Of a stretch of 64,000 nt of DNA, positions 14,081-46,965 are shown piece after piece. Source of the stretch: Nakamurella aerolata (GTDB taxonomy: Bacteria > Actinomycetota > Actinomycetes > Mycobacteriales > Nakamurellaceae); the NCBI RefSeq assembly GCF_013002705.1, contig NZ_JABEND010000004.1, positions 248,001 to 312,000 of the forward strand, given 5' to 3'. Below the pieces are notes generated by a model. That model was not told the origin of the DNA and did not search any database. It was given only the letters and a program-made list of their open reading frames with translations. A program made the position numbers and the translations under genes. The number at the start of each line of letters is the position of its first letter. The stretch's first letter is position 1.

Positions 14081-14950
14081 ATGTCGGTGGTCGGGACCGG
14101 ACCCGAGGGTGAGTGCGTGCGAGCGGGGCAAGTGAACTGGGGCAGTGCCACCAACCGGGGGCGGGTGCGGCGGGTCAACGAGGACGCCATGTTGGCGCTT
14201 CCCGACGTCTTCGTGGTGTCCGACGGCATGGGTGGGCACCGGGCCGGAGACGTGGCGGCCCGCACCGTGATCGACGAGTTCGCCGGCGCCCACACCTCCG
14301 CCGACCCCCGCGACCGCGAGTGGGTGACGCAACGGGTGCGCCGCGCCGGGCGCAGCATCAGGCAGGGCAGCGGTGGCGGCGCCACCGTCGTCGGGCTGGT
14401 GGCCGAGCCGGGGCGCTGGCTGGCGTTCAACATCGGCGACTCCCGCGCCTACGCCTGCTACCAGGGCACCATGCAGCAGATCACCACGGATCATTCGGTG
14501 GTGCAGGAGCTGGTGGATTCCGGCGAGCTCGACCGGGCCGGGATGCGCACGCATCCGCAGCGGCACGTCATCACCAGGGCGATCGGCCTGGTGGGCGACA
14601 GCCACCCGGACTTCTTCCAGCTGCCGATCCGCGAGGGTGAGCGGCTGCTGTTGTGTTCGGATGGGCTCACCAACGAGCTCACCGAGGCGCAGATCCACAG
14701 CGTGCTGGCAAGCCAGATCGACCCGCAGTTGGCGGCCGATGCGCTGGTTCTTGCTGCGGTGCGGGCCGGGGGCCGTGACAATGTCACGGTGGTGGTGGTT
14801 GATGTACTGGCAGTGCCAGGCGCCGCCGCATCGGAAGACACCCGGCCACGGGAGCTACCTGTCGAGCCTCTCGAGGAAGACATCGAGAGCACCTTGCCGA
14901 TGCCGTGGGCGGCGCTTCCGGTACCGGCAAGCAGAGGGAGCAGTAGGTGA
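14081..14950 (+). CDS. PP2C-family Ser/Thr protein phosphatase
   Basis: Metal-dependent phosphatase expected to reverse the action of the kinase encoded three genes on. The 289 residues carry the family motifs in order: NRGRVRRVNEDA (start of fold), VVSDGMGGHRAG, GGGATVVGLV, NIGDSRAYA, HPQRHVITRAIG, LLLCSDGLTNEL and GGRDNVTVVVVD, with the metal-binding aspartates intact. No membrane segment, so cytosolic. A GTG start is also possible inside, but ATG at 14081 fits best. The stop overlaps the FHA gene (GTGA), showing translational coupling. It opens the 26-kb co-directional block. Confidence 0.95.
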   Translation: MSVVGTGPEGECVRAGQVNWGSATNRGRVRRVNEDAMLALPDVFVVSDGMGGHRAGDVAARTVIDEFAGAHTSADPRDREWVTQRVRRAGRSIRQGSGGGATVVGLVAEPGRWLAFNIGDSRAYACYQGTMQQITTDHSVVQELVDSGELDRAGMRTHPQRHVITRAIGLVGDSHPDFFQLPIREGERLLLCSDGLTNELTEAQIHSVLASQIDPQLAADALVLAAVRAGGRDNVTVVVVDVLAVPGAAASEDTRPRELPVEPLEEDIESTLPMPWAALPVPASRGSSR

Positions 14951-16866
14951 GTACATCGGACGGATCGACGGATCCGATCTCGCAGGTCGGCTACCTGGCC
15001 GGTGACCAGTGGTTGGTCGCCGGCCCGCGGGCGTTGGTGCTGTTGGCCGGTGACCCGGCCGACGCGTTGCGGTGGTGGCCGGCGGTCCGCGCCGGCGCCG
15101 ACGCCACCGAGCTGATCGGGCTGCTGTACACCGACGGGGTCCTCGGCACCGACCGCCCGGTGACGGTGGTCTGCCGCGAGGACGACGACGCGGTGCGGCT
15201 GCTGGTGCAGTCCGGTGCTGCCGCGACGGTCCGCACGGCCGACGGCGGTGACGTGCTGGTCGATTCCGCCGGGTTGCTCAGCTGGCGCGAGCAGCTGGTG
15301 CCGGACGCCGCGCTGGTGCGCCTCGGGCCGGCCGTCGCTGGGACGTCCGATCCGGCGCCCGCCGACGCTGGGTCCGCCGACGCGCTGCCGCTGCCGGACG
15401 AGCTGCTGCCGATGCCGACCGGTGTGGTCAGGGCCGGGCAGGTGTGCTGGCAGCTGCGCAGGGACGTCCCCCAGCCGCGACCAGCACAGCCAGCGCAACC
15501 GGAGCAGCCAGCGCAGCCGGAGCAGGCTACGGAACCAGCAGCAGACCCGGGGAGCGCAGCGAACCCGAAACCAACGGCGAATCTAGAAGGCGCGGAGGAC
15601 CCGGGGAGCGAAGCGAACCCGGAAACACCGGCGAATCTAGAAGGAGCGGTCGACTCGGGGAGCGCAGCGAACCCAGAGCCAGCGGCAGACCTGGGGAGCG
15701 CAGCGAACCCAGAGCCAACGGAAGGCCCGGGGAGCGCAGCGAACCCGGAACCAGCGGTCGACTCGGGGAGCGCAGCGAACCCGGAAATAACGGCGAACCC
15801 AGAACCAGCGGCAGACCCGGGAAGCGCAGCGAACCCGGCAACTGCCGACGAGCCCGTGCAGGAGCCGGAAACGGAGCCAGCGCCGGCGCAGGAGTCTGAG
15901 GCCGAGCGCACCGGCTCCATGCCGGTGCAGCTGCCCGCCCCGGCGGCAGCGGCGCTGGCGGCGCTCGCCGGCCGGCAGCCCCCGCCGCAGCCAGATCCGG
16001 ACGCGACGCAGGACCTGCCGGCCGATCCCGACGACAACGCCGGCGCCGACCACAATGCCAGCACCGGTGCGCCACCGGCGGCGAGCCCCGCGGCGAGCCG
16101 GGCGCCGGACATGTCGCGGGCGAACCCGTTCCCGCCGCTGTCGGTGCCGCAGTTCGCCCCGCCGCCGTTCGTGCCGATCGCGACGACGCTGCCGCCGGCC
16201 GGGCCCCAGAACGCTCAGAACACCCCCGACCTGTCGAAAACCCCTGCGCCGCAACCGGAAGGCGACCACGACGGCCACACCCAGGTGGGCTTCTCGCAGC
16301 TGGCGTCGGACCTGGCGGCGGGCACGGCGGGCAACGGCTCCGACCCGGGTGCCGGCAACCCCGACATCACCGACAGCTACGACGCGGTCGAGCTCGGACC
16401 CGGCGAGGTGTACGCGGTGGTGTGTGCCAGTCGTCATGCCAACCCGCCGCTCAGCACCAGCTGCCGGGTCTGCGGTGCGGCGATCGCGAACACCCGGCCG
16501 GAGCCGGTCGAAAGGCCGGTGCTGGCCGACCTGGCGCTGTCCACCGGGCAGCGGGTGGCTGTGCAGGCGCCGGTGGTGATCGGCCGGGCCCCCGCCGCGC
16601 TCGGTAACGGGGCGCAGCTGGTCACCGTTCCCAGTCCGCACCAAGACATTTCGCGCAGCCACGTCGAGGTGCGCGCCGAAGACTGGCACGTGGTGGTGGC
16701 CGATCTGAAGTCCACCAACGGAACGGTGGTGCGGGCGCCGGACCGGCCGGACCAGCTGCTGCACCCCGGCCAGGCGATCGTGGTGGAGCCGGGCTGGGAG
16801 ATCGATCTGGGCGACGGGGTCACCGTGCAGGTTCGCGAACCCGGCGATCAGCGGGACATGCGTTGA
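14947..16866 (+). CDS. FHA-domain protein with low-complexity repeat linker
   Basis: A cytosolic 639-residue phosphothreonine reader. Residues 1-165 form an unrecognised N-terminal domain. Residues about 180-305 are a Pro/Ala/Glu-rich linker built from repeated GSAANPE units. Residues about 480-520 hold a zinc-ribbon-like CxxxxxxP...CRVCGAAI piece, and residues about 540-635 a FHA domain with IGRAPAALG, SRSHVEV and DLKSTNGTVV, the phosphopeptide-binding Arg, Ser, His and Asn positions. It starts GTG inside the PP2C stop and is followed after 16 bp by the kinase, its likely phospho-partner. Linker length is likely variable between strains. Confidence 0.9.
   Translation: MSTSDGSTDPISQVGYLAGDQWLVAGPRALVLLAGDPADALRWWPAVRAGADATELIGLLYTDGVLGTDRPVTVVCREDDDAVRLLVQSGAAATVRTADGGDVLVDSAGLLSWREQLVPDAALVRLGPAVAGTSDPAPADAGSADALPLPDELLPMPTGVVRAGQVCWQLRRDVPQPRPAQPAQPEQPAQPEQATEPAADPGSAANPKPTANLEGAEDPGSEANPETPANLEGAVDSGSAANPEPAADLGSAANPEPTEGPGSAANPEPAVDSGSAANPEITANPEPAADPGSAANPATADEPVQEPETEPAPAQESEAERTGSMPVQLPAPAAAALAALAGRQPPPQPDPDATQDLPADPDDNAGADHNASTGAPPAASPAASRAPDMSRANPFPPLSVPQFAPPPFVPIATTLPPAGPQNAQNTPDLSKTPAPQPEGDHDGHTQVGFSQLASDLAAGTAGNGSDPGAGNPDITDSYDAVELGPGEVYAVVCASRHANPPLSTSCRVCGAAIANTRPEPVERPVLADLALSTGQRVAVQAPVVIGRAPAALGNGAQLVTVPSPHQDISRSHVEVRAEDWHVVVADLKSTNGTVVRAPDRPDQLLHPGQAIVVEPGWEIDLGDGVTVQVREPGDQRDMR
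15546..15843 (+). repeat. Seven in-gene copies of a GAGCGCAGCGAAC-type repeat
   Basis: The core GGGGAGCGCAGCGAACCC, with small changes, recurs seven times at irregular 40-60 bp spacing inside the FHA gene and encodes (P/L/S)GSAANPE. Two intervening ACCGGCGAATCTAGAAGG-like pieces are also duplicated. The GAGCGNAGCGAAC core resembles a short interspersed repeat seen in GC-rich actinomycete genomes, here kept in frame. Confidence 0.8.
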
Positions 16867-16882
16867 GCCGTCAGCGATCTCG

Positions 16883-18445
16883 GTGGCGTCGATGAGCCGC
16901 CGCCCCCCGGCACCACCGCCCGATCTACCCGGCTACACCGTCAGCAAACTGCTCGGCTCCGGCGGTTTCGCCGACGTGTACCTGTACGAGCAGCAGTTGC
17001 CGCGCCGTTCGGTCGCCGTCAAGGTGCTGCTGCCGGGCGCCGCCGACGCCGAACTGCTCGCTCAGTTCGACGCCGAGGCCAACCTGATGGCGGCGCTGTC
17101 GACCCACCCGGCGATCGTCACCATCCACCAGGCCGGAATCTCCCGCGACGGCCGGCCGTACTTGGTGATGGAGCATTGCTCGCGCCCCAACCTGGCGGCC
17201 AGGTACCGGTCGGAGCGGCTCGGTGCCGCCGAGGTGCTGCGGGTCGGTATCCGGCTGGCCGGCGCCGTGGAGACCGCGCATCGCGCCGGCATTCTGCACA
17301 GAGACATCAAGCCGGCCAACGTGTTGACCACCGATTTCGGTCATCCGGTCCTCAGCGACTTCGGCATCTCGGTGCAGAGCGCCAGCGTCCGCGGCCCGGC
17401 CGGACGGCCCTCGGGCGAATCGGGTTCGGTCGGCATGAGCATCCCGTGGTCGGCACCGGAGGTGTTCACCGAGCACGGCGGCGACGAGCGCGCCGACATC
17501 TACTCGCTGGCCGCCACCCTGTACACGGTGCTGGCCAGCCGGTCGCCGTTCGACCGGCCCGGCGGGCCGAACACCTCGGCCGATCTGATGAACCGGATCC
17601 GGACCGCGCCGCTGCCGCCGATCGGCCGGGACGACATTCCGGACGCGCTGGAGCGGGTGATCACCCGCGGCATGGACCGCAACCGCGGCGCCAGGTTCGC
17701 CACCGCGCTCGATTTCGCCAGGGCGCTGCAGCAGGTGGAGGCGTCGCTGCGGTTGTCGCCGACGCCGATCGATGTGCTTGACGAGGATCCGCAGCACGCC
17801 GCCGAGGAGCTGGGGGACACTCCCGCCACCAGGGTGCGGGCGCTGACCGTCATCCATCCGCAGGCGCCTGCGGCCGGTGCCAAGCAGTCCGGCGTTCCGC
17901 AGTTCGCCAACCCGGGGACGGCCGCCGCCGGCGGCGGTGGCGGGTTCGCGCCACCCCAAGGGGGCCAGGGCGGCGCGGCCGCGGGCTGGTCCGGCCCGGG
18001 CACAGTCGTTGCCGCGCAACAATTCTCGGCGCCTCCGCCGGCCCAGCCCGCGCGTCGTTCCAGCTCGCTGCTCGGCTGGCTGGGCGGTGCTGCGGTGCTG
18101 GCGGTCGCCGCCGTCGTCGCGGTGTTGGCGCTGAACGGCGGTGACGACCCGGCTCCGCCCCCGTCCGGGCCGGCGCTGCCGAGCATGTCGCCGCAGGGCC
18201 CGATGGATGTGCTGCCGGCACCGAAGGTGGCGGTCAAGGTGGTGGACGGCAAGAGCGTTTTCAGCTGGGCGCCGCCGAAGGGCTTCGCCGATGGGGACTT
18301 CTACCGATGGAGCACTTCGCCCGATGGCGGGTACAAAACTATCCGGGACACTACGGTGACGGTCCCCAAGCCGAGCGCCTGCCTGTACCTACAGGCAGTG
18401 AGCAAGGCGGGTACAGCATCCGAGACGGAGCACAGGTGCTCGTGA
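16883..18445 (+). CDS. Membrane Ser/Thr protein kinase (PknB-like)
   Basis: Hanks-type kinase. The N-terminal kinase domain shows the glycine loop LLGSGGFADVYLYE, Lys in VAVKVLL (about residue 46), HRDIKPANVLTTDF (about 139), DFGISVQ (about 159), and SAPEVF plus DIYSLAATLYTVL. A Gly/Pro/Ala-rich linker leads to one membrane helix at about 393-417, then a 100-residue extracellular domain starting with a Pro-rich piece and ending in TASETEHRCS. It lacks the PASTA repeats of PknB. GTG at 16883 is the listed start; ATG at 16892 is an equally good choice (residue 4). It sits between two FHA genes and downstream of PP2C, a complete phosphorylate/read/reverse module. The activation loop contains SGESGSVGMSIPW. 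Confidence 0.93.
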   Translation: MASMSRRPPAPPPDLPGYTVSKLLGSGGFADVYLYEQQLPRRSVAVKVLLPGAADAELLAQFDAEANLMAALSTHPAIVTIHQAGISRDGRPYLVMEHCSRPNLAARYRSERLGAAEVLRVGIRLAGAVETAHRAGILHRDIKPANVLTTDFGHPVLSDFGISVQSASVRGPAGRPSGESGSVGMSIPWSAPEVFTEHGGDERADIYSLAATLYTVLASRSPFDRPGGPNTSADLMNRIRTAPLPPIGRDDIPDALERVITRGMDRNRGARFATALDFARALQQVEASLRLSPTPIDVLDEDPQHAAEELGDTPATRVRALTVIHPQAPAAGAKQSGVPQFANPGTAAAGGGGGFAPPQGGQGGAAAGWSGPGTVVAAQQFSAPPPAQPARRSSSLLGWLGGAAVLAVAAVVAVLALNGGDDPAPPPSGPALPSMSPQGPMDVLPAPKVAVKVVDGKSVFSWAPPKGFADGDFYRWSTSPDGGYKTIRDTTVTVPKPSACLYLQAVSKAGTASETEHRCS

Positions 18446-18460
18446 GGGAAGATAGGTCAG

Positions 18461-19318
18461 ATGACCGAAACGGTAGTTCGGGGTTCAACGGCCTCGCGGG
18501 CGAAGGGTGACATCCGGGTGTCCATGGACCACCAGCAGGATGCGGTGACGCCCGCCGGCGGACCGGCCACCGGCGAACCGGCCGGCGGCGACCAGGCCGC
18601 CCCGGCAACCGCCGGCGCTGCGGGAGCCACCGCGATGCACATCGAGTTCTGCGGCGAGTGGTCCAAGCTCGACCAGGACAAGCCCTTCACCATCGGCCGC
18701 GGCGGCGACCTGCAGATCGACGACAATCCCTACCTGCACCGGCACTTCCTGCAGGTGGCCTACGGCGACGGGCTCTGGTGGCTGACCAATACCGGCAGTC
18801 AGTTGTCCGCGACGGTCAGCGATGCCGCCGGGTCGGTGCAGGCCTTCCTGGCGCCGGGGGCGCGGCTGCCGCTGGTGTTCGCCAACACCACGGTGCTGTT
18901 CACCGCGGGACCGACAACGTACGAGCTCACCCTGGTCGGCAGCGAGCCGGCCTTCCAGGTCGTCGAACCTGTCGACGGCAGTACCTCGGGGGAAACCACC
19001 ATCGGGCCGGTGGCACTCACCGACTCGCAAAAGGCGGTGATCGTGGCGCTGGCGGAACCGCTGCTGCGCCGCGACGGCACCGGGACGTCGGCAATGCCGT
19101 CGTCGAAGGAGGCCGCCGCCCGACTCGGTTGGGAGATGACCCGATTCAACCGCAAACTCGACAACGTGTGCGACAAGCTCGACCGGCGCGGGGTCCGTGG
19201 CCTGCGCGGCGGTCCCGGCCAGCTGGCCACCAACCGGCGGGCCCGGCTGGTGGAGCATGCGGTGGCGTCCCGGCTGGTGACGCCGGAAGACCTGCCGCTG
19301 CTGGATCAGTCGTTGTAG
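18461..19318 (+). CDS. FHA-domain protein with C-terminal helix-turn-helix-like region
   Basis: A 285-residue cytosolic protein. After a 55-residue disordered start, residues about 58-165 form an FHA-like beta sandwich (FTIGRGGDLQIDDNPYLHRHFLQV), in which the usual SxxH is replaced by YLHRHF. Residues about 185-285 are helical and resemble a winged helix: LTDSQKAVIVALAEPLLR, KEAAARLGWEMTRFNRKLDNVCDKL, then RGVRGLRGGPGQLATNRRARLVEHAV. I recall the same pairing next to giant Ig-like/FN3 genes in other actinobacteria. It could couple kinase signalling to transcription of the giant genes. ATG at 18461, 15 bp after the kinase stop. Confidence 0.85.
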   Translation: MTETVVRGSTASRAKGDIRVSMDHQQDAVTPAGGPATGEPAGGDQAAPATAGAAGATAMHIEFCGEWSKLDQDKPFTIGRGGDLQIDDNPYLHRHFLQVAYGDGLWWLTNTGSQLSATVSDAAGSVQAFLAPGARLPLVFANTTVLFTAGPTTYELTLVGSEPAFQVVEPVDGSTSGETTIGPVALTDSQKAVIVALAEPLLRRDGTGTSAMPSSKEAAARLGWEMTRFNRKLDNVCDKLDRRGVRGLRGGPGQLATNRRARLVEHAVASRLVTPEDLPLLDQSL

Positions 19319-19386
19319 CGACGCCGCCCCGCGTGCTGATCGGTCGGCTTCGAGAAACCGCACGCGGCTGCTGATTCGAGCACACC

Positions 19387-22300
19387 ATGATCCGGCTACC
19401 CCGCCCCCTGCTCATCGTGACCGCCGCCGCGCTGGCCTGCGCCGGTGTGGTGGTCGCCGTCGCGCAAGATACCGGCTACCCCGCCGCCAAGACCGACATG
19501 GCCGACCGGCCCATCTGGGTCAGCAGCGGCTCCGACGGCATGCTCGCCAGGGTCAACCTGACCAGCCGTGACCTGGAGAGCGGCGTCGTGGTCGGCGACA
19601 ACGACTTCGACCAGCTGTACCAGGACGGGCAGACCGTGCTGGTGGCGAACTCGCAGACCGGCTACGTCAAGACCGTCGACCCCGTCTACGCCGAACTCCG
19701 CGGCAACACCGGCGTGCCCGTCGGCGCCGCGCTGGCCATCGGCGGCACCCACGCCACCGGCAAGACTCCCGGCTCCGGGGTGCTGGCCGTCGCGGACGCC
19801 AAGAAGGACGCGCTGTGGGTGCGGCCGCTGAACCAGCTCGGCCGCGGCCAGCTCGGTTCGGTGGCACCGACCGCCGCGGTTCCGGCCGGATCCCGGGTGG
19901 CCGTGGGGGAGTCCGGCACGGTGTTCGCCGTTTCCCCCGACGCCGGCGCCGTCACGGTGGTGCCGACCGGGCCGGAGGGCGCCGGCCGCCCGCAGCGGCT
20001 CACCGTCCCGGCCGCGCCCGCTGGTGCCGCCAGGACGCCGGCCGGCGGGGTGACGGTGGCCGCGGTCGGCGACACCGGGGTGGCGCTCGACCCTGCGCAC
20101 CAACGACTGCTGGTGATCACCCCTGGCTCGGGCACCGCGGGGCCCGCGGTCCGCGCCTTGCCGCTGCCGGCGCAGCTGCTCGCCGAACCCGCCGCGGCGC
20201 CCGGCGCCGGCGCCGGGCTCGCCCTGCAACAGAGCGGGCCGGACGACCCCGCCGTGCTGCTGAGCACCAGCAGCACGCTCTGGCAGCTACCGCTCGACGG
20301 CGGCCAACCCAACGCGCTCGGCCACACCACGCCTGGCGCGGGAAGCACTGCGCCGCAAGGTGTTCCGGCCGCGCCGGTGCGGCTGGCCGGCTGCAGCTAC
20401 GCGGCCTGGGGCACCGGCGCGACGTCGTACCTTGCCGCCTGCGCCGGCCGCGATCCGGTGGCCCGCCGGCTGCCCAAGGTGGATCCGAAGGCCGACGCCC
20501 AGCTGACCCCGGTGTTCCGGGTGAACGGCACCGTGGTGGTACTCAACGACGTCCGCAGCGGCAAGGTCTGGACGGCGGACGCCTCCGAGGTGGTCGACTC
20601 ATGGCCGGAGCTGCGCGGCGCCGTCACCGCCGGGCAGCAGCAGACCGACAAGAACGGCGCCGGCGACGCCGTCGGCTCCGGCGACCAGCCGAAGGTCGAC
20701 TGCCGTAAGGCCGGCGCCACCGTGCCGCGCGGCGTCGACGATCAGCTCACCCTGCGCGCCGGCGGCAGCTACCTGCTCGATGTGCTCGCCAACGACGACG
20801 TGGACGCCTGCACCGTCCCCACCATCGTCGGGATCGGCAACGTCGACACCAGGATGCTGCGGGTACAGAAGTTCGGCGGCCAGCAGCTGCTGATCACCGC
20901 AAGGGACGACGCCTCGGGTGCGGCACCGGCCTTCAGCTACGAGGTCGCCGGCGACGGCACCACCCGCCGCACCGCGGCGGTCAAGGTGAGAGTGCTTGGC
21001 AGCAAAGAGAAATCGCGACCGGCCCGGCAGGCAAGCAGCCCGATCGTCAGGGCAACGCCGGGCAGCACCGTCACCGCCAACGGGCTGGCCGGGTTCACCT
21101 CGACCAGCGGCGACCCGCTGCGGCTGCTGGCCGCCGACCCGCAGTCCGCCGACATCAGCATCCCGGCCAAATGGTCGGACGGCCGGCTGCGGATCGCCGT
21201 CGCCGCCGGTGCCGAACCGGGGCTGCGCACCGTCGAGGTCCAGGTCACCTCCGGCGACAGCGAACCGGTCCGTGGCACCGTGCAGGTGCAGGTGGTGGCG
21301 CCGGCCAAGGCCGTCCCCGAGGCGGCGCCGGTGTTCGCCACCGCGCAGGTGGGCCGGTCCACGCGCATCGACCTGCTCGACAAGGTGCGGATGCCGGACT
21401 CGTCGGCGCCGCGGCTGGTGTCGGTGACGCCGGACAGCGCCGCTGCGGGCGGTAATGCCGACGCGGTGTCTCCACATGCGGTGCCTGCCGAGACCGACCA
21501 GCTTTCCGGCACCGTCACGGTGCGACCGGAGCGGGCCGGCAGCTACTACTTCAGCTATCGGGTGGCCGGCGTCGGCGGCGAGACCGACGGCCGGCTGCGG
21601 GTCGATGTCGGTGCCGACACCGCCGACGGCACAGGCACGTCCGACGGCCGGCCGGTCGCCGGCAGCCGCGACGTGTACCTGCCGGTGGACGGCTCGTCCG
21701 TGACGGCCGACCTGTCCGGTGTGCTCACCTCGCCGGTAGGGAAAACCGTTGCGGTGCAATCGATCGAGGTGCCGGCGGGGGCTCCGGTGAAGGCCGCCGT
21801 TGTGGCCGGGTCGGTTGGCGTGTTCTCGGCGGCGGCGCCGCTGCCGGCCGAGGGACTGCTGGTGAAGTACACCGGCACCGACGGCCAGCACACCGCGACC
21901 GGCACCATCAGGCTGGTCGCCACCGAGCAGGCGGCTCCGGCCGCGAAACCGCTGGTACGGCCGCTCAGCGCCAGGGTGGCCCCCGGCGGCATGCTCAGCA
22001 TCCCGGCAGCGCAGTTCGCCACCGAACCCAACGGCAAGCCGCTGACCGTGCAGACCCCGCCGGCCACCGACACCCAGGGCCGTCCGATTCCCGGGATGCT
22101 GGTCGCCACCGGCACCGGGCTGGGTTACCGGGCCGGGACGCGGCCCGGCACCTTCACCGTCCCGGTCGGGGTCATCGGCGCCGGCGGCACCGCCACCGCG
22201 CCGGTCACCATCACCGTCACCGGCAGCCGCGGCGGCAGTGAGCAACTCGGCAAGCCGGCCGACGCGGCCCTGCGGCTGTACACCGACTCCGCCGGCACGG

Positions 22301-26568: not shown

Positions 26569-26574
26569 CGGTGA

Positions 26575-26593
26575 CCACCGCCATGGGCGGTGG
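26575..26593 (+). terminator. Short hairpin between the two giant genes
   Basis: A perfect 8-bp stem CCACCGCC/GGCGGTGG with a 3-nt ATG loop begins 7 bp after the stop of giant gene 1. No T run follows, so it is more likely an attenuator or mRNA-end stabiliser than a full terminator. The remaining 120 bp before giant gene 2 may carry an internal promoter, but I cannot define it. Confidence 0.4.
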
Positions 26594-26715
26594 CAGGGGC
26601 GATTTGCCTCAACGCCGCCCGCCCGTCACATTGTTATGAGATCGTGCAGCAACATGGGGGAGTCGGTGCGCTGACGGAGTCGACCGGCCCGTAGCGAAAG
26701 AACCAGGAGTCGAGT

Positions 26716-33906: not shown

Positions 33907-33919
33907 GGAATTTACCCAG

Positions 33920-34885
33920 ATGAGCATGACCCCCGACCACGCCCAGTGGTTCGCGCAGACCTTCTCGTCGCTGGTGGGCAACATCGGCCAGGCGGTGCTC
34001 GGCAAGCCGCGCACGGTGTCGCTGGCCGTCACCTGCCTGCTCAGCGAAGGTCACCTGCTGCTGGAGGATTTCCCCGGAACCGGAAAGACCAGTCTGGCCA
34101 AGGCGTTGGCCGCCACCGTGCAGGGCACCAACTCGCGGATCCAGTTCACCCCCGACCTGCTGCCCAGCGACGTCACCGGGGTGACGATCTACGACCAGAA
34201 GTCGGGCAAGTTCGATTTCCACCCTGGCCCGATCTTCGCCTCTGTTGTGCTGGCGGACGAGATCAACCGGGCGTCGCCGAAGACCCAGGCGGCGCTGCTG
34301 GAGGTGATGGAGGAGTCCAAGGTCACCGTCGACGGGGTGAGTCACAGCGTCGGCAACCCGTTCATGGTGATCGCCACCCAGAACCCGGTGGAGCAGGCCG
34401 GCACCTACAAGCTGCCAGAGGCCCAGCTCGATCGATTCTTGATGAAAACCTCGCTGGGTTACCCCGATCACGCTGCCACGGTGGAGATTCTGGCCGGTGC
34501 CACCACCAAATCCCATGTGCGGCAGGTGGATCCGAAGATCACCACCTCGGCGGTGGTGGACATGGCCGAGCTGGCGGCGACCGTGCACACCGACCCTGCG
34601 GTGCTCGACTACGTCGCCCGCATCGCCGAGGCCACCCGCAGCACCCCGGAGACAACGGTGGGTGTTTCGGTGCGCGGGTGCCTTGCGCTGGTCCGCGCGT
34701 CCCGCACCTGGGCGGCGGCGCACGGTCGGCACTACGTGGTGCCGGACGATGTGAAGGATTTGGCCGAACCCGTGCTGGCGCACCGGATTCTGCTCGATGC
34801 CGAGGCGGAGTTCTCCGGCAGCACGGTGCCCGCGGTGCTGGATCGTATCCTCGGCGAGGTGGCACCGCCGGAGCGCAGGCGCTGA
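33920..34885 (+). CDS. MoxR-type AAA+ ATPase
   Basis: A 321-residue cytosolic ATPase of the MoxR/RavA class, which act as chaperones or maturation factors, often with VWA or DUF58 partners. It shows Walker A in EDFPGTGKTSLAK, Walker B in VVLADEINRASPKTQAALLE, sensor 1 in VIATQNPVEQAGTYKLPEAQLDRF and sensor 2 near VGVSVRGCLALVRASR. GAGGAA lies 9 nt before ATG 33920. Next gene is DUF58, starting 4 bp past the stop, the standard MoxR-DUF58-transglutaminase order. Inference: it prepares or assembles an envelope complex that acts with the giant surface proteins. Confidence 0.95.
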   Translation: MSMTPDHAQWFAQTFSSLVGNIGQAVLGKPRTVSLAVTCLLSEGHLLLEDFPGTGKTSLAKALAATVQGTNSRIQFTPDLLPSDVTGVTIYDQKSGKFDFHPGPIFASVVLADEINRASPKTQAALLEVMEESKVTVDGVSHSVGNPFMVIATQNPVEQAGTYKLPEAQLDRFLMKTSLGYPDHAATVEILAGATTKSHVRQVDPKITTSAVVDMAELAATVHTDPAVLDYVARIAEATRSTPETTVGVSVRGCLALVRASRTWAAAHGRHYVVPDDVKDLAEPVLAHRILLDAEAEFSGSTVPAVLDRILGEVAPPERRR

Positions 34886-34889
34886 GCCG

Positions 34890-36203
34890 TTGACCGCCCC
34901 ACCGCAGAGCGACGCACCGCCCGACACCACCGGTTGGCAGCGGCACCAGCTCACCGAGAACGCCGATCCGGCTGCGGCCGCCGGCTCGGAGCACACCGGC
35001 TCGCGCAGCTTCTCGCAGCGGCTGCAGCTGGTGGCCGAGCCGCTGCGCCGCGCCTCCGGCCCGGTGACGATGCTCGGGCTGGTGGCGGCGGCCGCGGTGG
35101 TGATCGGGCTGCTGGTGGTCTGGCTGACCAACTGGTCGGAGTTCTTGGCGTTGGCGCTGGTGGCCGGGGTGCTGCTGCTGATCGCGTCGGTGTTCCTGGT
35201 GGGCCGCAGCTCGTACGGCGTCGAGGTGAAGCTGCAGTCGGGTCGGGTGGTGGCCGGGGAGCGGGCCACCGGCGAGCTCGTCATCCGCAATACCGGCACC
35301 CACCGGCTGCTGCCGGCCAGGGTGGAGTTGCCGGTGGGCGGCAACCTGGCGTCGTTCCGGGTGCCGAGCCTGCCTGCCGGTGGCAGCCACGACGAGCTGT
35401 TCGTAATTCCGACCGAGCGGCGCGCGGTGATCAGGGTCGGCCCGGCCACCTCGGTGCGCGGCGACCCGCTCGGCCTGCTGCGCCGCCAGGTGCGCTGGAC
35501 CGGCGTCACCGAGCTGTACGTGCACCCGCAGCTCACCCGGCTGCACGGTGCCGCCACCGGTTCGGTGAAAGACCTTGAGGGGCAACCGACTCGGGAGCTT
35601 TCCAGCAACGACGTGTCGTTCCACCAGTTGCGGCAGTACGTGCCCGGCGACGACCGCCGCTATGTGCACTGGCGCACCTCGGCCCGCACCGGCGTGCTGA
35701 TGGTGCGGCAGTTCGAGGAGACCAGGCGCACCCATCTGGCGGTGGCGCTGTCGCTGGCCGCCGACGAGTACCACACTCCGGCCGATCTTGAGCTGGCGAT
35801 CAGCGCCGCCGCTTCCCTTGGCGTGCAAGCGATGTCGGAGGAACGCCCGGTGACGGTGTGCGCCGGCGCCGCGGTGCTGCACGGCGCTTCGGCGCGCCGG
35901 CTGTTGGATCGGTTCTCGGCGTTGGAGGCCGAGCCGGCCACCGCGGGCGTTGTCGGCGCAGGTCAGTTGGCGTCGTCCGCGGTGCCGAACGCGTCGGTGG
36001 CGGTGATGATCACCGGTGGTGCGGTGAGCCCGCCGGTGCTGCGGCATGCCGGCGCTGGCTTCTCCGTCGGGGTGCGGGTGGTGGCGCTGCAGGTCCGGTC
36101 GGGTGCCGCGCTGTCGCTGGGCACGGTGGGCCGGGTCGATGTGGCGACGGTCGGCTCGCTGGACGAACTGCCGCGGGCGCTGCGCTCGCTGAAGGCGGCC
36201 TGA
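34890..36203 (+). CDS. DUF58-domain membrane protein
   Basis: A 437-residue protein with two closely spaced membrane helices (about 58-80 and 83-105), then a beta-rich region (VEVKLQSGRVVAGERATGELVIRN), and the DUF58 signature at about 230-260 (LSSNDVSFHQLRQYVPGDD and YVHWRTSARTG). DUF58 has a von Willebrand-like fold and is a usual partner of MoxR ATPases. TTG at 34890 is chosen because it lies 4 bp after the moxR stop; the frame stays open further upstream into moxR but no better start is seen. The gene ends 3 bp before the transglutaminase-like gene. Confidence 0.88.
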   Translation: MTAPPQSDAPPDTTGWQRHQLTENADPAAAAGSEHTGSRSFSQRLQLVAEPLRRASGPVTMLGLVAAAAVVIGLLVVWLTNWSEFLALALVAGVLLLIASVFLVGRSSYGVEVKLQSGRVVAGERATGELVIRNTGTHRLLPARVELPVGGNLASFRVPSLPAGGSHDELFVIPTERRAVIRVGPATSVRGDPLGLLRRQVRWTGVTELYVHPQLTRLHGAATGSVKDLEGQPTRELSSNDVSFHQLRQYVPGDDRRYVHWRTSARTGVLMVRQFEETRRTHLAVALSLAADEYHTPADLELAISAAASLGVQAMSEERPVTVCAGAAVLHGASARRLLDRFSALEAEPATAGVVGAGQLASSAVPNASVAVMITGGAVSPPVLRHAGAGFSVGVRVVALQVRSGAALSLGTVGRVDVATVGSLDELPRALRSLKAA

Positions 36204-36206
36204 GGC

Positions 36207-38570
36207 ATGCAGCAGCACATCAGCCGCCCCAGGGTGGCCGTTGACGCCGTGGTGTTGGCGGCGTTGGTGGTCGGTGCCGGGTTGGCCTTCGGACCGGCCT
36301 ACGGCGGCAGCCGCTATTTGCTGACGCTCGGGCTGGGCGCGCTGCTCGGCGCCGTCGCCGCCGCGGTTCCGGTGTTGCTGCGCTGGCCGGGGTGGATGAC
36401 GCTGCCGATCGCCGCGGTCGGTTATCTGCTGGTCGGCCCGGTCGCGGCGACCCCGACGGTGGCGACCGCGGGGGTTTTGCCCAGCCTGGAGTCGACCAGG
36501 TTGTTGGCCAGGGGCGTGATCAGCTCGTGGAAGCAGATGCTGACCATTGCGGTGCCGGTCGGAGATTTCGGCGCGCTGCTGCTGCCGGCGTTTCTGTTGG
36601 CGCTGCTGCTGACAACGGCGGCGGTGCTGGTGGCGCTGCGCACCTCGGTGCCGCTGCTGGCGCTGCTCGGGCCGGTGCTGATGGGCATCGGCGCCGCCGC
36701 GTTCGGCACCACGACGGCGGTGGCCCCGGCCATCGCGGGCACCGCGCTGGGTCTTGCCGGGCTGGTGTGGGCGGCGTGGCGACGGCGGGCGTCCGGCAAG
36801 CCGGGACTTGAGCTGCGCAGGCCGACAGCTCTTGCGCTGCTGGTGATCCCGGCGGTGGCTGCCGGTGCGCTGCTCACCCCGGTGCTGGCCCCGGCAGCGG
36901 ACCGGGCGGTGCTGCGTACCGAGGTGGTGCCGCCGTTCGACGCCTCCAAGATCGAAAGCACCCTGAAGAGCTACCGCGGTTATGTCCGCAAGACCCCGAA
37001 CGACGTCGAGGTGGTGCTGGGCGGGGTGCCCAAGGGCGGCCTGTTCCTCGGCATGTCGACGATGACCGACTACAACGGGCTGCTGATGTCGGTGAACGAC
37101 GCCTCCGGTCGGTTCGCGCCGATCGGCGGTCAGCTCAACTCGGACGGTGACACGCCGGGGCAGCAGGTCCAGCTGACCGTCCAGGTGCAGGACTACTCGG
37201 GTCCGTGGGTGTTCACCGCAGGGCAGCTGCGCTCGCTGAAGTTCACCGGGGCGAGGGCGAACCAGCTGCAGCAGGGGCTGTTCTACAACCGCGACACCGG
37301 CAGTGCGCTGGTGCGCCCCGATCTGCAGAACGGCGATGGATACCGGCTCGCCACTTCGGTGCCGACAACTGTTGGCCTTGACGATCTTTCGGCGAGCAAG
37401 GGTCTGCAGGTGGACACCAGCGTGCCGATCCCCACCGCGACTAACGTGCCGACCGAGGTGCGTCAGCGCGCCAACGACTGGGGCGGTGACTCCACCGATC
37501 CCACCGACATCACCAGGGCTCTGTTGACGGCCACCAGCCAGGAGCACGGCTGGTGGAGTCACGGTGCCAGCGGCGAGCCGGCGAGCGCGGGCGGTCATGG
37601 CGCCGACCGGATCAGGGCGCTGCTCACCAACGACACCATGTACGGCGATGCCGAGCAGTACTCGGTGGCGGCGGCGTTGATGTTGTGGGAGCGCAAGATT
37701 CCGGCGCGGGTGGTGATGGGCTTCCGGCCGACCGATGCCGGCACGGTGACGCTGCGCGGCAAGGACATGACGGCCTGGGTCGAGGTGCCGTTCCGCGGTC
37801 GCGGCTGGTTGCCGCTGGACCCTAACCCCAGCGAGCAGAAGCCGCCGCCGACCCAGAAGCCGGGTGAGGCGCCGTCCGCGGCTGCGCAGAACACCCTGCA
37901 GAACCCGCCGCCGCCGATCCCGGCGACCACCCAGCAGCAGAAGACTCAGGATCAGCCCAAGAAGCCGAGCCAGGCGTCGAAATCCAAGCAGGCGCAACAG
38001 GAACAGACCAGCCAGCAGAGCTCGTCGAGCTCGTTCCCGTGGTGGCTGCTGCTGGTGATTGCCGGCGCGTTGCTGTTGGTGCTGTTGCCGCTGCTGGTGA
38101 TCTGGCTGCTGAAACGCCGGCGCCGCAAGCGGTTGGCCACCGGCCCGCCGGAGCGGCGGATCGCCGGTGGGTGGACCTATCTGATGGGTTCGGCGCGGGA
38201 TTTCGGCCGGACGGTGCGTCCCGGCGCGACGCGGTCGGAGATCGCCAAGGAGTGGTACAGCCGGCCGCCGGGCAGCAAGACGGCGGGTTCGCGGTCGGCT
38301 GCGGCGCCGGTGTCGGCGCCGGCTGCGGCGGCGCCCGGTCAGCCGGCTGCCGACCGGGGCTCGGGTGTTGCGCTGTTGGCCCGGGACGCCGACACCCAGG
38401 TGTTCGCGCCCGATCCGGTGCCGCAGCAGGCCGCCGACGCGTACTGGGCCGCGGTGGACCGTGAGTTGGCATCGCTGCGCCGCGCGCACACCCCGGTGCA
38501 GCGGCTGCGCGCGATGCTGTCGCTGCGATCGCTGCGGGCCGATCGGCAGCGCAAGGGTTCTGGCCGGTGA
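36207..38570 (+). CDS. Transglutaminase-like (TgpA-type) membrane protein lacking catalytic Cys and His
   Basis: A 787-residue membrane protein. Six or so hydrophobic helices occupy residues 10-215, an external domain follows with the transglutaminase-like core at about 465-540, then a Pro/Gln/Ser linker, a single helix (about 610-632) and a cytoplasmic tail. The core reads GDAEQYSVAAALMLWERKIPARVVMGF and later GKDMTAWVEVPFRGRGWLPLDP. Compared with active members (GDCxxFA...GIPARxVxG...HxWxEV...W..xDP), Cys is Ala and His is Thr; the Asp is retained. A cross-linking reaction is therefore unlikely; a binding or scaffold role is inferred. Start ATG 36207, 3 bp after DUF58; stop overlaps the next gene (GTGA). 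Confidence 0.88.
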   Translation: MQQHISRPRVAVDAVVLAALVVGAGLAFGPAYGGSRYLLTLGLGALLGAVAAAVPVLLRWPGWMTLPIAAVGYLLVGPVAATPTVATAGVLPSLESTRLLARGVISSWKQMLTIAVPVGDFGALLLPAFLLALLLTTAAVLVALRTSVPLLALLGPVLMGIGAAAFGTTTAVAPAIAGTALGLAGLVWAAWRRRASGKPGLELRRPTALALLVIPAVAAGALLTPVLAPAADRAVLRTEVVPPFDASKIESTLKSYRGYVRKTPNDVEVVLGGVPKGGLFLGMSTMTDYNGLLMSVNDASGRFAPIGGQLNSDGDTPGQQVQLTVQVQDYSGPWVFTAGQLRSLKFTGARANQLQQGLFYNRDTGSALVRPDLQNGDGYRLATSVPTTVGLDDLSASKGLQVDTSVPIPTATNVPTEVRQRANDWGGDSTDPTDITRALLTATSQEHGWWSHGASGEPASAGGHGADRIRALLTNDTMYGDAEQYSVAAALMLWERKIPARVVMGFRPTDAGTVTLRGKDMTAWVEVPFRGRGWLPLDPNPSEQKPPPTQKPGEAPSAAAQNTLQNPPPPIPATTQQQKTQDQPKKPSQASKSKQAQQEQTSQQSSSSSFPWWLLLVIAGALLLVLLPLLVIWLLKRRRRKRLATGPPERRIAGGWTYLMGSARDFGRTVRPGATRSEIAKEWYSRPPGSKTAGSRSAAAPVSAPAAAAPGQPAADRGSGVALLARDADTQVFAPDPVPQQAADAYWAAVDRELASLRRAHTPVQRLRAMLSLRSLRADRQRKGSGR

Positions 38571-39988
38571 CGCCGCGCGGTTCCGGCGGCGCCAGGTACT
38601 GCCAGACCTGCGGCGTCCCGATCGATGCGATGGCGGTGAGTTGCCCGGCATGCGGGTCGCCGACGCCGCTGCGCAACGCCGCGCTCGACCGGATCCGCCC
38701 GGCCCCGGTGGGTTCGCGGGTGAAGGCCGCGGTGGCCGAGACGCTGCCCGCCCTGGTTCTGGTGATCGCCGCCGTTGTCGCGGTGTTCCTGGATCTGCAG
38801 TGGCAGGTGTGGGTCGGGCTGCTCGGCGCCGCGGTGTTGGCGGTGCTCGCTGTTGGGCTCACCGGCGGGCAGGGCTTCGGCAAGGCCGGCGCCGGGCTGC
38901 GGGTGATCGATGAGCATTCCGGTGCGCCGATCGGCGGTGGCGCCATGGCGGTGCGGCTGCTGCTGCGGCTGCTGATGACGGTCGGAACCCTTGGGGTGGC
39001 TGCGTTCTCCTACCGCTGGGATCCTTCGGGCCGCGAGCAGACCTGGTGGGACCGGGCCACCCACACCAGGGTGGTGGACGCTCACCAGCGGGCCGGCGAC
39101 GATCTGCCCTGGCTGAACACCGGTGCAGCGCCGATGGCCGGGGCCGGCCCGGTGACGTCGGTGCCCGGCTTCGCGCAGCGCCCGTCCGAGCCGCCGCTCG
39201 GCCCGCCCAGCGCCGGCACCGCGATATCACCGCAGCCGCAAAGACTTTCCGGTCCCGGCCTCGACGAACCCACCGTCGTCCTTCCCGGCCGCGACACCGG
39301 CATCGACGGCCCCACCGTCATCCTCGAGCAACCCACCGCCGAAGAACCCACCGTCGCCCTCACCAAGCAACCCGCTGAGCCCACCGGCGAATCGGCGCAG
39401 CCGAGAGCTGAGCAACCCGAGCAGCCGCCGGCGAGGCACGAGCCGCGGCCTTATCCCGCGGATCCTGCGCCAGAACGCGAATCGGCGCAGCCGAGAGCTG
39501 AGCAACCCGAGCAGCCGCCGGCGAGGCACGAGCCGCGGCCCCACCCCACGGACCCTGCGCCAGAACGCGAATCGGCGGAGCCGAGAGCACCAGAGGATGA
39601 CGACGAACCAGAAGAACACCACACCGTCATCCGCCCGGAACGCGCCGCCGCGCTGATCCAGCGCGGGGTGACGCTGCGCTGGGACGCGGGCTCGGAGATC
39701 ACGGTGGAGGGCATGGTGCTGATCGGCCGCGACCCGATGCCGGCGGACGGTGAGCAGGTCGACCGCAGGCTTGCGGTTGGCAATGAGTCGCGCGGGGTGT
39801 CGAAAACCCATCTGGCCCTGCTGGTTTCCGACGGCGCTCTGTCGGTCATCGACCGGCACTCCACCAACGGCGTCCGCATTGTGCGCGCCGGCGGCGAGGT
39901 GATCACCTGCGTGCCGGGCGAGCCGACGAGCACCGAACCGCACGATCGCATTGCGTTCGGTGGTCGCTGGCTGGAAGTGCTCGACTGA
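38567..39988 (+). CDS. Zinc-ribbon / RDD membrane / FHA protein
   Basis: A 473-residue protein that ends the block. Order of parts: N-terminal zinc ribbon (CQTC...CPAC, residues about 12-30); an RDD-type membrane region (about 45-165) with two to three helices and GQGFGKAGAGLRVID; a Pro/Glu-rich linker (about 180-355) with a 30-residue tandem repeat; and a C-terminal FHA domain (about 375-470) with LIGRDP, SRGVSKTHLAL and DRHSTNGVRI. It would tether a phosphothreonine-binding module to the membrane beside the DUF58/transglutaminase-like complex, linking that complex to the kinase. GTG at 38567 overlaps the previous stop by 4 bp. Confidence 0.9.
   Translation: MTPRGSGGARYCQTCGVPIDAMAVSCPACGSPTPLRNAALDRIRPAPVGSRVKAAVAETLPALVLVIAAVVAVFLDLQWQVWVGLLGAAVLAVLAVGLTGGQGFGKAGAGLRVIDEHSGAPIGGGAMAVRLLLRLLMTVGTLGVAAFSYRWDPSGREQTWWDRATHTRVVDAHQRAGDDLPWLNTGAAPMAGAGPVTSVPGFAQRPSEPPLGPPSAGTAISPQPQRLSGPGLDEPTVVLPGRDTGIDGPTVILEQPTAEEPTVALTKQPAEPTGESAQPRAEQPEQPPARHEPRPYPADPAPERESAQPRAEQPEQPPARHEPRPHPTDPAPERESAEPRAPEDDDEPEEHHTVIRPERAAALIQRGVTLRWDAGSEITVEGMVLIGRDPMPADGEQVDRRLAVGNESRGVSKTHLALLVSDGALSVIDRHSTNGVRIVRAGGEVITCVPGEPTSTEPHDRIAFGGRWLEVLD
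39387..39590 (+). repeat. 90-bp in-frame tandem repeat in FHA linker
   Basis: A 90-bp unit is repeated at offset 90 (starts 39387 and 39477), with a partial third copy from 39567. It encodes a 30-residue Glu/Pro/Arg unit beginning ESAQPRAEQPEQPPARHEPR. The copies are nearly identical in DNA, so the duplication is recent and linker length may vary between strains. Confidence 0.88.
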
Positions 39989-45903: not shown

Positions 45904-46911
45904 TCAATCCACCGTGACGTAGTCGGGGCCGCTGTAGTGGCCTTCCAGCTGGGTGCGGCGCTGCAGAATCAGATCGCCGAGCAGGCTCGACGCTCCGAAC
46001 CGGAAGTAGTAGGGGTCAAGCCATTCCGGCCCGGCGACCTCGTGCACCGCGACCAGGTAGCGGATGGCGTCCTTGGTGGTGCGGATACCGCCGGCGGGTT
46101 TGACGGCCCGGCGCTGGCCGGTGAGCTGGTACCAGTCCCGCACCGCCTGCAGCATCAGGTGGGTGACCGGGAGCGTCGCGGCCGGCGAGACCTTTCCGGT
46201 GGACGTCTTGATGAAGTCGCCGCCGGCGAGCAGTGCGAGGAAGCTGGCGCGGCGCACATTGTCGTAGGTGCCGAGCTCGCCGATCTCGAGGATCACCTTG
46301 AGCCGCACCGGGTTTCCGTCCGGTGTGCTGGCCGCGTCGCACACCCTGCGGACGTCGACGATCTCGTCGAACACGGTGCCGTAGTGCCCGGCGAGGAAGG
46401 CGCCTCGGTCGATCACCATGTCGATCTCGGTGGCGCCGGCGTCCAGCGCGGAACGGACGTCGGCGAGCTTGACGGCGCGAGCGGCGCGTCCCGACGGGAA
46501 AGCTGTTGCGACCGAAGCGATACCGATGCTCCCGCCGCCGGGCACGCCCGCCGGGCCGAGGGCGGCGACGGCGTCGGCGACCCGGTCGGGGTAGACGCAG
46601 ACCGCGGCGACGGGCGGGGTGTCGGGATAGTCGGGGTCGGGGCGGCGGGCCTTGGCCGCCAGCGAACGCACCTTGCCCGGGGTGTCGGCGCCCTCGAGGG
46701 TGGTCAGGTCGACCATCGAGATGGCCAGGTCGATGGCGGCGAGCTTGCTGGCCTTCTTGATGGAGCGGGTGGCGAGGGTGGCCGCGCGTGACTCGAGTCC
46801 AACCGGGTCGACACCTGGCAGGCCGTGCAGGAAGCGGCGCAACGCCGACTCTCCGGCGGTGGCCTCGGCCAGCTGCGCCGGCAGCGCCTGGCTCACGGGG
46901 GCGGACGTCAT
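45904..46911 (-). CDS. deoC: Deoxyribose-phosphate aldolase
   Basis: Splits 2-deoxyribose-5-phosphate into acetaldehyde and glyceraldehyde-3-phosphate. About 335 residues, the long form seen in actinobacteria and animals. Visible: AIDLAISMVDLTTLEG, AVCVYP, GIASVATAFPSG, EIDMVIDRGAFLAGHY, LKVILEIGEL, Schiff-base region DFIKTSTGKV, and VKPAGGIRTTKDA. ATG at 46911 is listed; GTG at 46917 two codons upstream is possible, neither with a clear ribosome site. It heads the deoC-ALDH-ALDH operon and is divergent from the membrane glycosyltransferase-like genes, with about 50 bp between. Confidence 0.94.
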   Translation of the reverse strand: MTSAPVSQALPAQLAEATAGESALRRFLHGLPGVDPVGLESRAATLATRSIKKASKLAAIDLAISMVDLTTLEGADTPGKVRSLAAKARRPDPDYPDTPPVAAVCVYPDRVADAVAALGPAGVPGGGSIGIASVATAFPSGRAARAVKLADVRSALDAGATEIDMVIDRGAFLAGHYGTVFDEIVDVRRVCDAASTPDGNPVRLKVILEIGELGTYDNVRRASFLALLAGGDFIKTSTGKVSPAATLPVTHLMLQAVRDWYQLTGQRRAVKPAGGIRTTKDAIRYLVAVHEVAGPEWLDPYYFRFGASSLLGDLILQRRTQLEGHYSGPDYVTVD

Positions 46912-46965
46912 CGGCACATCTTAGGTCGAACGGGGTCTGCGCCGACCGGCCCGTAGCATCGCGGC

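Follow-up and report, generated by a model that had tools for sequence, protein, structure and literature searches.

What is a set of phospho-signalling genes that surrounds two giant surface proteins of almost the same length, and does it represent a system that has not yet been described? We examined this question in a 64,000-nucleotide stretch of Nakamurella aerolata DNA (NCBI RefSeq assembly GCF_013002705.1, contig NZ_JABEND010000004.1, positions 248,001 to 312,000), hereafter called the window, in which a block of ten genes, all on the plus strand, occupies 14081-39988. The initial annotation, made from the letters of the window alone, regarded this block as a candidate for an undescribed system and the two tandem giants as a duplicated and specialised sensor or adhesin pair. 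We found that five core proteins of the block are homologous, and arranged in the same order, to those of the PFNA operon of bifidobacteria, and we read the block as an extended, actinobacterial member of the PFNA operon family, with the fn3-type giant doubled in tandem.

Results

Gene content of the block

The genes and the gap between the giants are as follows, with matches to Pfam unless stated otherwise.

14081-14950, plus strand: PP2C-type protein phosphatase, the eraser (PP2C_2, E 5e-11)
14947-16866, plus strand: FHA protein with a long Pro/Ala-rich stretch (FHA, E 7e-7, residues 543-620)
16883-18445, plus strand: membrane Ser/Thr kinase (Pkinase, E 3.5e-32)
18461-19318, plus strand: predicted FHA-like and helical (winged-helix-like) protein, the FHA-HTH gene (AlphaFold2 model and Foldseek)
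19387-26568, plus strand: giant 1, 2393 aa (fn3, E 8.8e-35; Big_9)
26569-26715, plus strand: gap of 147 bp between the giants, in which none of the block proteins found a match at E<=0.1
26716-33906, plus strand: giant 2, 2396 aa (fn3, E 1.2e-59; Big_9)
33920-34885, plus strand: MoxR AAA+ ATPase with Walker A and B intact (AAA_3, E 2.8e-62)
34890-36203, plus strand: DUF58 membrane protein (DUF58, E 3.7e-12)
36207-38570, plus strand: polytopic transglutaminase-like protein without the catalytic cysteine (Transglut_core, E 2.3e-10)
38567-39988, plus strand: protein with a zinc-ribbon-like N-terminus, an RDD membrane domain and FHA, the membrane reader (RDD, E 9e-8)

All ten genes lie in open frames where the initial annotation had placed them, and the domain types claimed for them were confirmed by Pfam or, for the FHA-HTH protein, by the AlphaFold2 model. 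The description as a phospho-signalling block with MoxR and DUF58 accordingly holds, as does the length of about 2,395 residues given for each giant. The coordinates indicate 4-bp overlaps at two junctions (PP2C/FHA and transglutaminase/RDD-FHA) and, in gene order, gaps of 16, 15, 68, 147, 13, 4 and 3 bp at the remaining ones, with the start of DUF58 taken as the likely TTG at 34890 in an open frame that begins at 34797. The PP2C protein scored 208 bits against the NCBIfam Stp1 family, which is lower than the cut-off of 230, and the FHA (E 7.5e-4) and zinc ribbon (E 9e-4) matches of the RDD-FHA protein were both below the Pfam cut-offs. The source genome is 4.35 Mb in size and 95% complete.

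Homology with the PFNA operon

The PFNA cluster of Bifidobacterium consists of pkb2, fn3, aaa-atp (MoxR), duf58 and tgm, to which prpC, a hypothetical gene and fha are added in some species (PMC8430577, PMC6803598). It is co-transcribed in B. longum GT15, with MoxR being a substrate of Pkb2 (PMC8430577), and is called unique to bifidobacteria (PMC8430577, PMC10688814).

For comparison with the window, we read four loci of family f62 (genomes G872, G682, G837 and G719). We take this family to be the Bifidobacteriaceae on the basis of a 16S genus signature, which was present in 14 of 24 f62 genomes, including those of the four loci, and in none of 6 others and none of the 394 genomes in the class sample. 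All four loci carry the kinase, giant, MoxR, DUF58 and transglutaminase genes in the order seen in the window, and the best tblastn match per locus had an E of 3e-55 to 2e-63 for the kinase, 9e-56 to 3e-62 for giant 2, 5e-110 to 2e-120 for MoxR, 4e-38 to 6e-62 for DUF58 and 1e-46 to 5e-53 for the transglutaminase. The giant was also re-found, at E 8e-71 to 3e-98, in seven f62 genomes, which had been picked for an earlier match, so that seven of seven does not represent a frequency. A PP2C match follows the core in G837 (E 6e-17) and, marginally and at the stretch end, in G872 (E 0.001). The giants of the four loci have frames of 1837-2194 codons with 2-3 FN3-like domains. Thus, with the architecture of the PFNA operon and five core proteins homologous in all four loci, the block can no longer be called an undescribed system.

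The likeness to PFNA comprises the order and homology of the five core genes, a giant with C-terminal FN3-like domains, the presence of PP2C and FHA genes, and the absence of the transglutaminase cysteine, for which all four Bifidobacteriaceae loci have Ser. In contrast, the window has two giants instead of one, seven FN3-like domains in each instead of 2-3, an extra FHA-like/helical gene between the kinase and the giants, an FHA gene between PP2C and the kinase, and PP2C before the core rather than after it. The window also departs from the published description of one FN3 protein with two FN3 domains, which, in our own reading, is a trait of the bifidobacterial branch and not of the wider family. 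As for the published restriction to Bifidobacterium, it is the restriction that fails and not the homology, as matches were found in 242 of 396 genomes of one actinobacterial order (described below), and no description of the operon outside Bifidobacterium was found among the titles and abstracts listed by full-text literature searches. The mycobacterial moxR1 operon (ripAB, moxR1, DUF58 and vWA genes), which has been likened to PFNA (PMC12067865), resembles the block in that MoxR adjoins DUF58 but differs in having a vWA protein and cell-wall hydrolases named as neighbours (PMC12067865), and a moxR gene is often followed by genes for DUF58 and a transglutaminase (PMC6803598).

Occurrence across actinobacteria

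A profile of the giant N-terminal region matched 242 of 396 genomes in the order of G418 at E<=1e-12, where the matches of G593 and G629 were weak enough to be Ig-only and those of the other 240 were below 1e-28. A weaker profile, built from two rows, matched 16 of 200 genomes in the order to which the window belongs, seven of these genomes being Nakamurella, and in the class-wide sample, 100 of 394 genomes matched at E<=0.001, many of them through the Ig part only. Small genomes chosen by guess gave only weak matches (four of eight), mostly in the Ig region, the kinase had no relative in viral contigs, and a search with Pfam PF20597, also picked by guess, gave no match and was uninformative. 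Giant-bearing blocks were found in Nakamurella, Georgenia, Ruania, Occultella, Actinotalea and others, and MoxR-DUF58-transglutaminase modules together with kinase modules in Arthrobacter, Paenarthrobacter, Agreia and some Microbacterium, in which the place of the giant is past the stretch end. Most of these genera are environmental, and, going by their habitats, an animal host is unlikely to be a common factor.

This distribution bears on the role in host-immune sensing that has been proposed for bifidobacterial PFNA. The core gene set is the same, and the genera named above as carrying giant-bearing blocks or modules are mostly environmental. A B. longum FN3 fragment has been found to bind TNF-alpha in vitro (PMC8430577, PMC10688814, PMC12607495), whereas the statement that the operon occurs in bifidobacteria only (PMC10688814) is contradicted by the present results. 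We consider it very improbable that the block is a host-immune sensing operon.

The FHA-HTH protein was used for an alignment scan of named genomes, covering the best 80 of 561 relatives, and a match was also located at 5838-6521 of NZ_KE384549.1 in N. lactea DSM 19367. Fifteen of the 80 loci have a giant and MoxR downstream, and two more have a giant with MoxR past the stretch end. In 38 loci, MoxR, DUF58 or the transglutaminase gene lies upstream of the kinase module, placing the giant beyond the stretch with its copy number unseen, and five show the kinase side only, in range. In 20 loci, L049, L059 and L065 among them, the FHA-HTH gene was found but no match to the kinase, MoxR, DUF58 or transglutaminase within the range available, which reached up to 10 kb to either side; 17 of the 20 are Microbacterium records and one, L121, shows PP2C and FHA; the FHA-HTH regulator may have a separate role of its own. 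Neighbours shuffling freely between genomes, which the initial annotation had named as evidence contrary to its reading, were not seen, although there are two arrangements of the kinase module relative to the giant-MoxR-DUF58-transglutaminase module. The rows in these and the following counts are related to one another. Actinobacterial-type FHA-HTH genes were also present in records of Sporosarcina (L061), Planococcus (L110) and an Acidobacteria metagenome-assembled genome (L084), with other block genes in L061 and L084, and these three records are probably mislabelled or contaminated.

Transglutaminase-like protein, MoxR and DUF58

The transglutaminase-like domain aligns with TgpA of Pseudomonas aeruginosa (6g49) at E 1.4e-4, and TgpA, which we take to belong to a MoxR-DUF58-transglutaminase trio, likewise has a transglutaminase-core domain in a membrane protein. 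The Cys-His-Asp triad of TgpA is intact and the protein is active (PMC3507681), whereas the family analysed here has lost the Cys. We aligned 67 rows, consisting of the window and all the stretches that matched the transglutaminase domain (66 of 109), in which N. lactea is counted once and one Micrococcaceae genome twice (G839 and L098). The column of the catalytic Cys contains Cys in none of the 67 rows (D 43, Q 9, E 7, S 5 and A 3), with Ala in the window and Ser in the four Bifidobacteriaceae rows. His is present at the catalytic position in 42 of 67 rows, with Thr in the window, and Asp in 40 of 67, including the window. The window protein has no Cys in its 787 aa, and 66 of the 67 domain segments are Cys-free. 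A working transglutaminase was rejected on these grounds, and, judging from the alignment, the protein is a pseudo-transglutaminase family-wide, without a nucleophile. The core match (E 2.3e-10), the homology to the active TgpA and the retained Asp of the triad would favour a real transglutaminase that forms cross-links between the giants or between them and the wall, and this explanation is nonetheless hardly credible, being effectively refuted by the lack of Cys in the active column and in the whole window protein.

The Walker A and Walker B motifs of MoxR were invariant in 54 of 54 and 60 of 60 sequences, respectively, where aligned. The metal-site residues of DUF58 look absent when set against what we presume to be the canonical motif, and hence we make no claim on them. 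Since MoxR also matches Pfam bpMoxR (E 2e-9), a conflict system of the MoxR-vWA ternary kind was considered. This match is, however, far below that to AAA_3 (E 2.8e-62), no classical vWA domain was found in the ten proteins with Pfam, and PMC7159879 builds such systems on MoxR and vWA, with zero occurrences of DUF58 and FN3 in its accessible portion, making a conflict system highly improbable. This candidate was rejected, as vWA with a third component (VMAP, iSTAND or FtsH) was not found with Pfam at E<=0.001 in the ten proteins or with NCBIfam in nine of the ten.

Kinase and FHA proteins

The kinase has a transmembrane segment at about residues 395-417 (by eye), followed by an ectodomain of about 105 residues with an FN3-like part at about 443-514. 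Among its relatives, the H and D of HRD are conserved in 81 of 81 and the R in 79, DFG in 80 of 80 and the lysine in 81 of 81, with N. lactea counted twice (L022 and L048). A profile built only from the FN3 repeats of the giants was run on the 81 kinase ectodomains, and 59 of them matched at E<0.01 and 78 at E<1, compared with 6 and 164, respectively, of 1620 shuffled sequences. By this profile comparison, the kinase ectodomain was demonstrated, at the family level, to be FN3-like, like the distal domains of the giants.

Canonical phosphothreonine-binding FHA domains have the motifs GR, SxxH and NG. The C-terminal FHA domain of the FHA protein carries the canonical motif (by eye). The FHA-HTH protein, which is 67-86% identical in six Nakamurella relatives, had no Pfam match at E<=1, and its sequence gave only chance-level matches to solved structures (best E 0.51). 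Its AlphaFold2 model, with a mean predicted local distance difference test score (pLDDT) of 67.6 that rises to about 81-91 over most of the sandwich and locally in the helical domain, consists of a sandwich at residues 59-160 and helices with a short strand at 188-269. The best Foldseek matches of the model were FHA domains (6ccd, E 7.6e-5), and no DNA-binding fold was matched at E<0.001; the helical domain is read as winged-helix-like, the HTH reading being a prediction from the model. In all 24 sequences compared, GR is present, the last motif is N-x-G and the Ser of SxxH is replaced (P 19, Q 4 and L 1), departing from the canonical set. Therefore, it may be possible that the FHA-HTH protein does not read phosphothreonine and binds a partner without phosphorylation. 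Of the two cytosolic readers initially proposed, the FHA-HTH protein may accordingly not be one.

Architecture of the giants

From the N- to the C-terminus, both giants consist of a short tail, a transmembrane segment, an N-terminal domain, a long Ig-like (Big_9) stalk, a low-complexity linker, seven FN3-like domains and a cap. They are homologous along the full length with 27-36% identity by segment (36% in the N-terminal domain, 33% in Ig, 34% in Ig with FN3 and 27% in the cap, whose alignment scored 74 against a maximum of 35 in 50 shuffles), although their linkers differ in composition, that of giant 1 being Ala/Thr/Pro. The matching length, which had been taken as a sign of specialisation, follows from this shared ancestry. 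The GC contents by codon position (0.69/0.60/0.92 for giant 1 and 0.66/0.55/0.92 for giant 2) indicate that both are coding.

For giant 2, a stretch of 561 residues beginning at residue 25 was modelled with AlphaFold2 (mean pLDDT 75.5; predicted template modelling score 0.63), and the model shows a transmembrane helix, a beta-propeller and an Ig-like domain. Its top Foldseek match was 1l0q, an archaeal surface-layer protein with a YVTN propeller and PKD (E 1.8e-11), and most of the matches ranked after it were propellers as well, BamB being an example. The likeness to 1l0q, a propeller followed by an Ig-like-class domain, is limited to the type of fold. The membrane-proximal end of giant 2 is accordingly a predicted beta-propeller, and the N-terminal domain of giant 1 would be propeller-like through its homology to giant 2. 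The Ig stalk of giant 2 had no match to solved structures by sequence at E<=0.01.

Copy number and descent of the giants

In the whole source genome, a giant 1 search and a wider profile found only the two giants. In Nakamurella, the only genus of the window's family, we searched 17 genomes, of which seven matched a two-giant profile, and a 20-row profile found the same seven and a weak Ig-only match in G002. Single giants are present in G007, G011 and G016, while in G009, G010 and G013 a block with one giant is accompanied by a second, distant giant-MoxR-DUF58-transglutaminase cluster. Two giants in one block were seen only in the window among these 17 genomes, and one giant lies between FHA-HTH and MoxR in the 15 loci of the FHA-HTH scan with both neighbours visible, which bears out the initial view that a block usually has one giant and that it is duplicated here.

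In the order of G418, at least 14 other genomes have tandem giants (G462, G418, G900, G819, G621, G732, G848, G534, G469, G697, G866, G777, G839 and G791), defined as a pair of N-terminal matches that share contig and strand and whose starts are no more than 10 kb apart. The tandem counts are lower bounds, with three candidates scored per genome in that order and class-wide and seven in the window's order. A tandem pair unique to N. aerolata was thereby rejected. At the 12 tandem loci examined (all but G732 and G848), the pair is directly before the MoxR-DUF58-transglutaminase-like genes in all 12, and a kinase is present in the stretch read, upstream or downstream, at 10, with none found in G791 and G900. 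The inter-giant gap of G791 (L154/L155) contains a decayed MoxR piece, with 78% identity to the intact gene across 241 bp, and after it 121 bp that match the first giant's leader at 90% identity; by these identities, it is the footprint of a direct tandem duplication. No such remnant was found in the 147-bp gap of the window. The gap of about 2.4 kb in G777 (L152/L153) has an opposite-strand open frame of 717 codons, perhaps an inserted mobile gene.

A tree of 58 giant N-terminal regions was made by a quick method with long-branch and composition warnings, excluding the short second part of L025. The two copies are mutual sisters in G418, G900, G839, G791, G777 and G534. Older pairs are seen in G621 and G697, and in G469 and G866, where the upstream copies of the two genomes group together (G621a with G697a, G469a with G866a) and the downstream copies do so in separate clades (G621b with G697b, G469b with G866b). 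In G462 and G819, the copies are mixed. This pattern indicates that duplication, or duplication with gene conversion, occurred repeatedly. The frames of the second giant of G866 (L160; 1407 codons) and the block giant of G009 (L025; 1208 + 1063 codons) are interrupted, owing to decay or sequencing error.

Giant 2 of the window groups with the single giants of N. lactea (45% identity to L022) and G016. Giant 1 groups with these three but outside them, with a support of 95-96 in the Shimodaira-Hasegawa-like approximate likelihood ratio test (SH-aLRT). Its end branch of 2.12 is the longest in the tree (median 0.21), and its best identity to any other row is 30-31%. In approximately unbiased (AU) tests, made after the tree was seen, sisterhood of giants 1 and 2 was rejected (p 0.005), as was the placement of giant 1 together with the giants of the second Nakamurella cluster (p 0.026). 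Seven FN3-like domains are found in both window giants, N. lactea and G016, compared with 5-6 in the six other complete-frame Nakamurella giants, and in one giant outside the genus, G777a. These counts fit either a duplication that is old in this clade and was followed by losses elsewhere or a younger copy that has evolved very fast.

The long branch, the low identity and the rejected sisterhood could also be explained if giant 1 was transferred from another lineage or cluster instead of being duplicated from the ancestor of giant 2. Against this, giant 1 groups with the clade of giant 2, N. lactea and G016, sharing their seven FN3-like domains, and its grouping with the second Nakamurella cluster was rejected; long-branch effects limit the arguments on both sides, and we consider transfer improbable.

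The initial proposal of a specialised sensor or adhesin pair, in which the giants have diverged in role and are kept as a functional pair, is in agreement with the old pairs held in fixed positions by two lineages (G621/G697 and G469/G866), and with giant 1 being open over 2393 codons with strong codon bias and as many FN3-like domains as giant 2. However, six other pairs are mutual sisters, so that many pairs are recent copies or have undergone homogenisation through gene conversion, the second giant of G866 is interrupted, and the pair is absent from the other Nakamurella genomes searched. We consider the specialised pair rather unlikely, if plausible for the old-pair lineages and for the window.

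Elsewhere in the window

On the minus strand, 43502-44983 matches aldehyde dehydrogenase over about half of the Pfam profile (7-232 of 461) and is possibly truncated or frame-broken. The region 46000-52000 has a GC skew of about +0.15 and an AT skew of -0.20 to -0.30, marked in comparison with the rest of the window.

Discussion

The fibre-type giants, the sensor kinase, the ATPase and the pseudo-transglutaminase co-travel widely across the sampled actinobacteria. From the identity of these genes, which is established by the matches above, we infer their function, and the balance is roughly level as to whether the whole represents a kinase-regulated envelope apparatus in which MoxR, DUF58 and the pseudo-transglutaminase handle a propeller-Ig-FN3 fibre. 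Each giant would pass the membrane once, with a short N-terminus in the cytoplasm and a fibre of propeller, Ig stalk, linker and FN3 domains running across the wall. MoxR, DUF58 and the membrane pseudo-transglutaminase could form a complex that, without catalysis, serves as a chaperone or docking site in the placing or remodelling of the fibre, with the MoxR-driven step possibly being insertion, unfolding, anchoring or release. The kinase, with an outer domain like the distal repeats of the fibre, may sense the state of the fibre or a shared ligand and phosphorylate MoxR, as reported for Pkb2 of Bifidobacterium, and the FHA partners, and PP2C would reset the phosphorylation, while the FHA-like/helical protein might connect the circuit to transcription. 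The two giants would then provide two fibres for one machine, giant 2 being of the ancestral type and giant 1 divergent.

Several observations weigh against the account so proposed. The FN3 match of the window's own kinase ectodomain is weak (E 0.0016), 22 of the 81 kinases miss E<0.01, and the control for this comparison consisted of shuffled sequences only, without unrelated ectodomains. In the Foldseek search of giant 2, the propeller matches had template modelling scores (TM-scores) by query length of only 0.15-0.40 among the 50 rows listed, and the match to 1l0q had a TM-score of 0.37 by query length, a root mean square deviation of 19 and 12% identity; these scores are low partly because the model spans more than the propeller. 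The giant family is missing from 10 of the 17 Nakamurella genomes, and no FHA-HTH match was found in the 19.9 kb of the four Bifidobacteriaceae loci. The second clusters of G009, G010 and G013 (L026, L028 and L030) represent the module in a kinase-free form, as neither the kinase nor PP2C, FHA or FHA-HTH was matched over the 19.9 kb read there, and no PP2C, FHA or kinase was found in the stretch read at the G016 locus, so that the kinase may be dispensable or distant. In addition, we know of no experiment that ties MoxR, DUF58 or the pseudo-transglutaminase to the assembly of the giants.

More tentatively, and with the chances somewhat against it, we suggest that PFNA is a late branch of an ancient actinobacterial apparatus unrelated to animal immunity, in which a kinase with an FN3 ectodomain would monitor the fibre and MoxR, DUF58 and the pseudo-transglutaminase would act as a non-catalytic loading or gating machine. 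Repeated duplication would have given two alternative fibres under one kinase, and giant 1 could be an extreme, neofunctionalised second fibre.

The present findings contradict the published claim that PFNA and its FN3 protein are found in bifidobacteria only, and the wide occurrence of PFNA-type operons weakens the idea that they originated for the sensing of host cytokines. With no nucleophile in any of the 67 transglutaminase-like rows, models that involve enzymatic cross-linking or a cysteine protease need to be rethought. The question of what the MoxR/DUF58/transglutaminase-like machine does shifts to other, probably tractable actinobacteria with one or two giants, in which the tandem giants represent natural replicates for a comparison of one-fibre and two-fibre operons.

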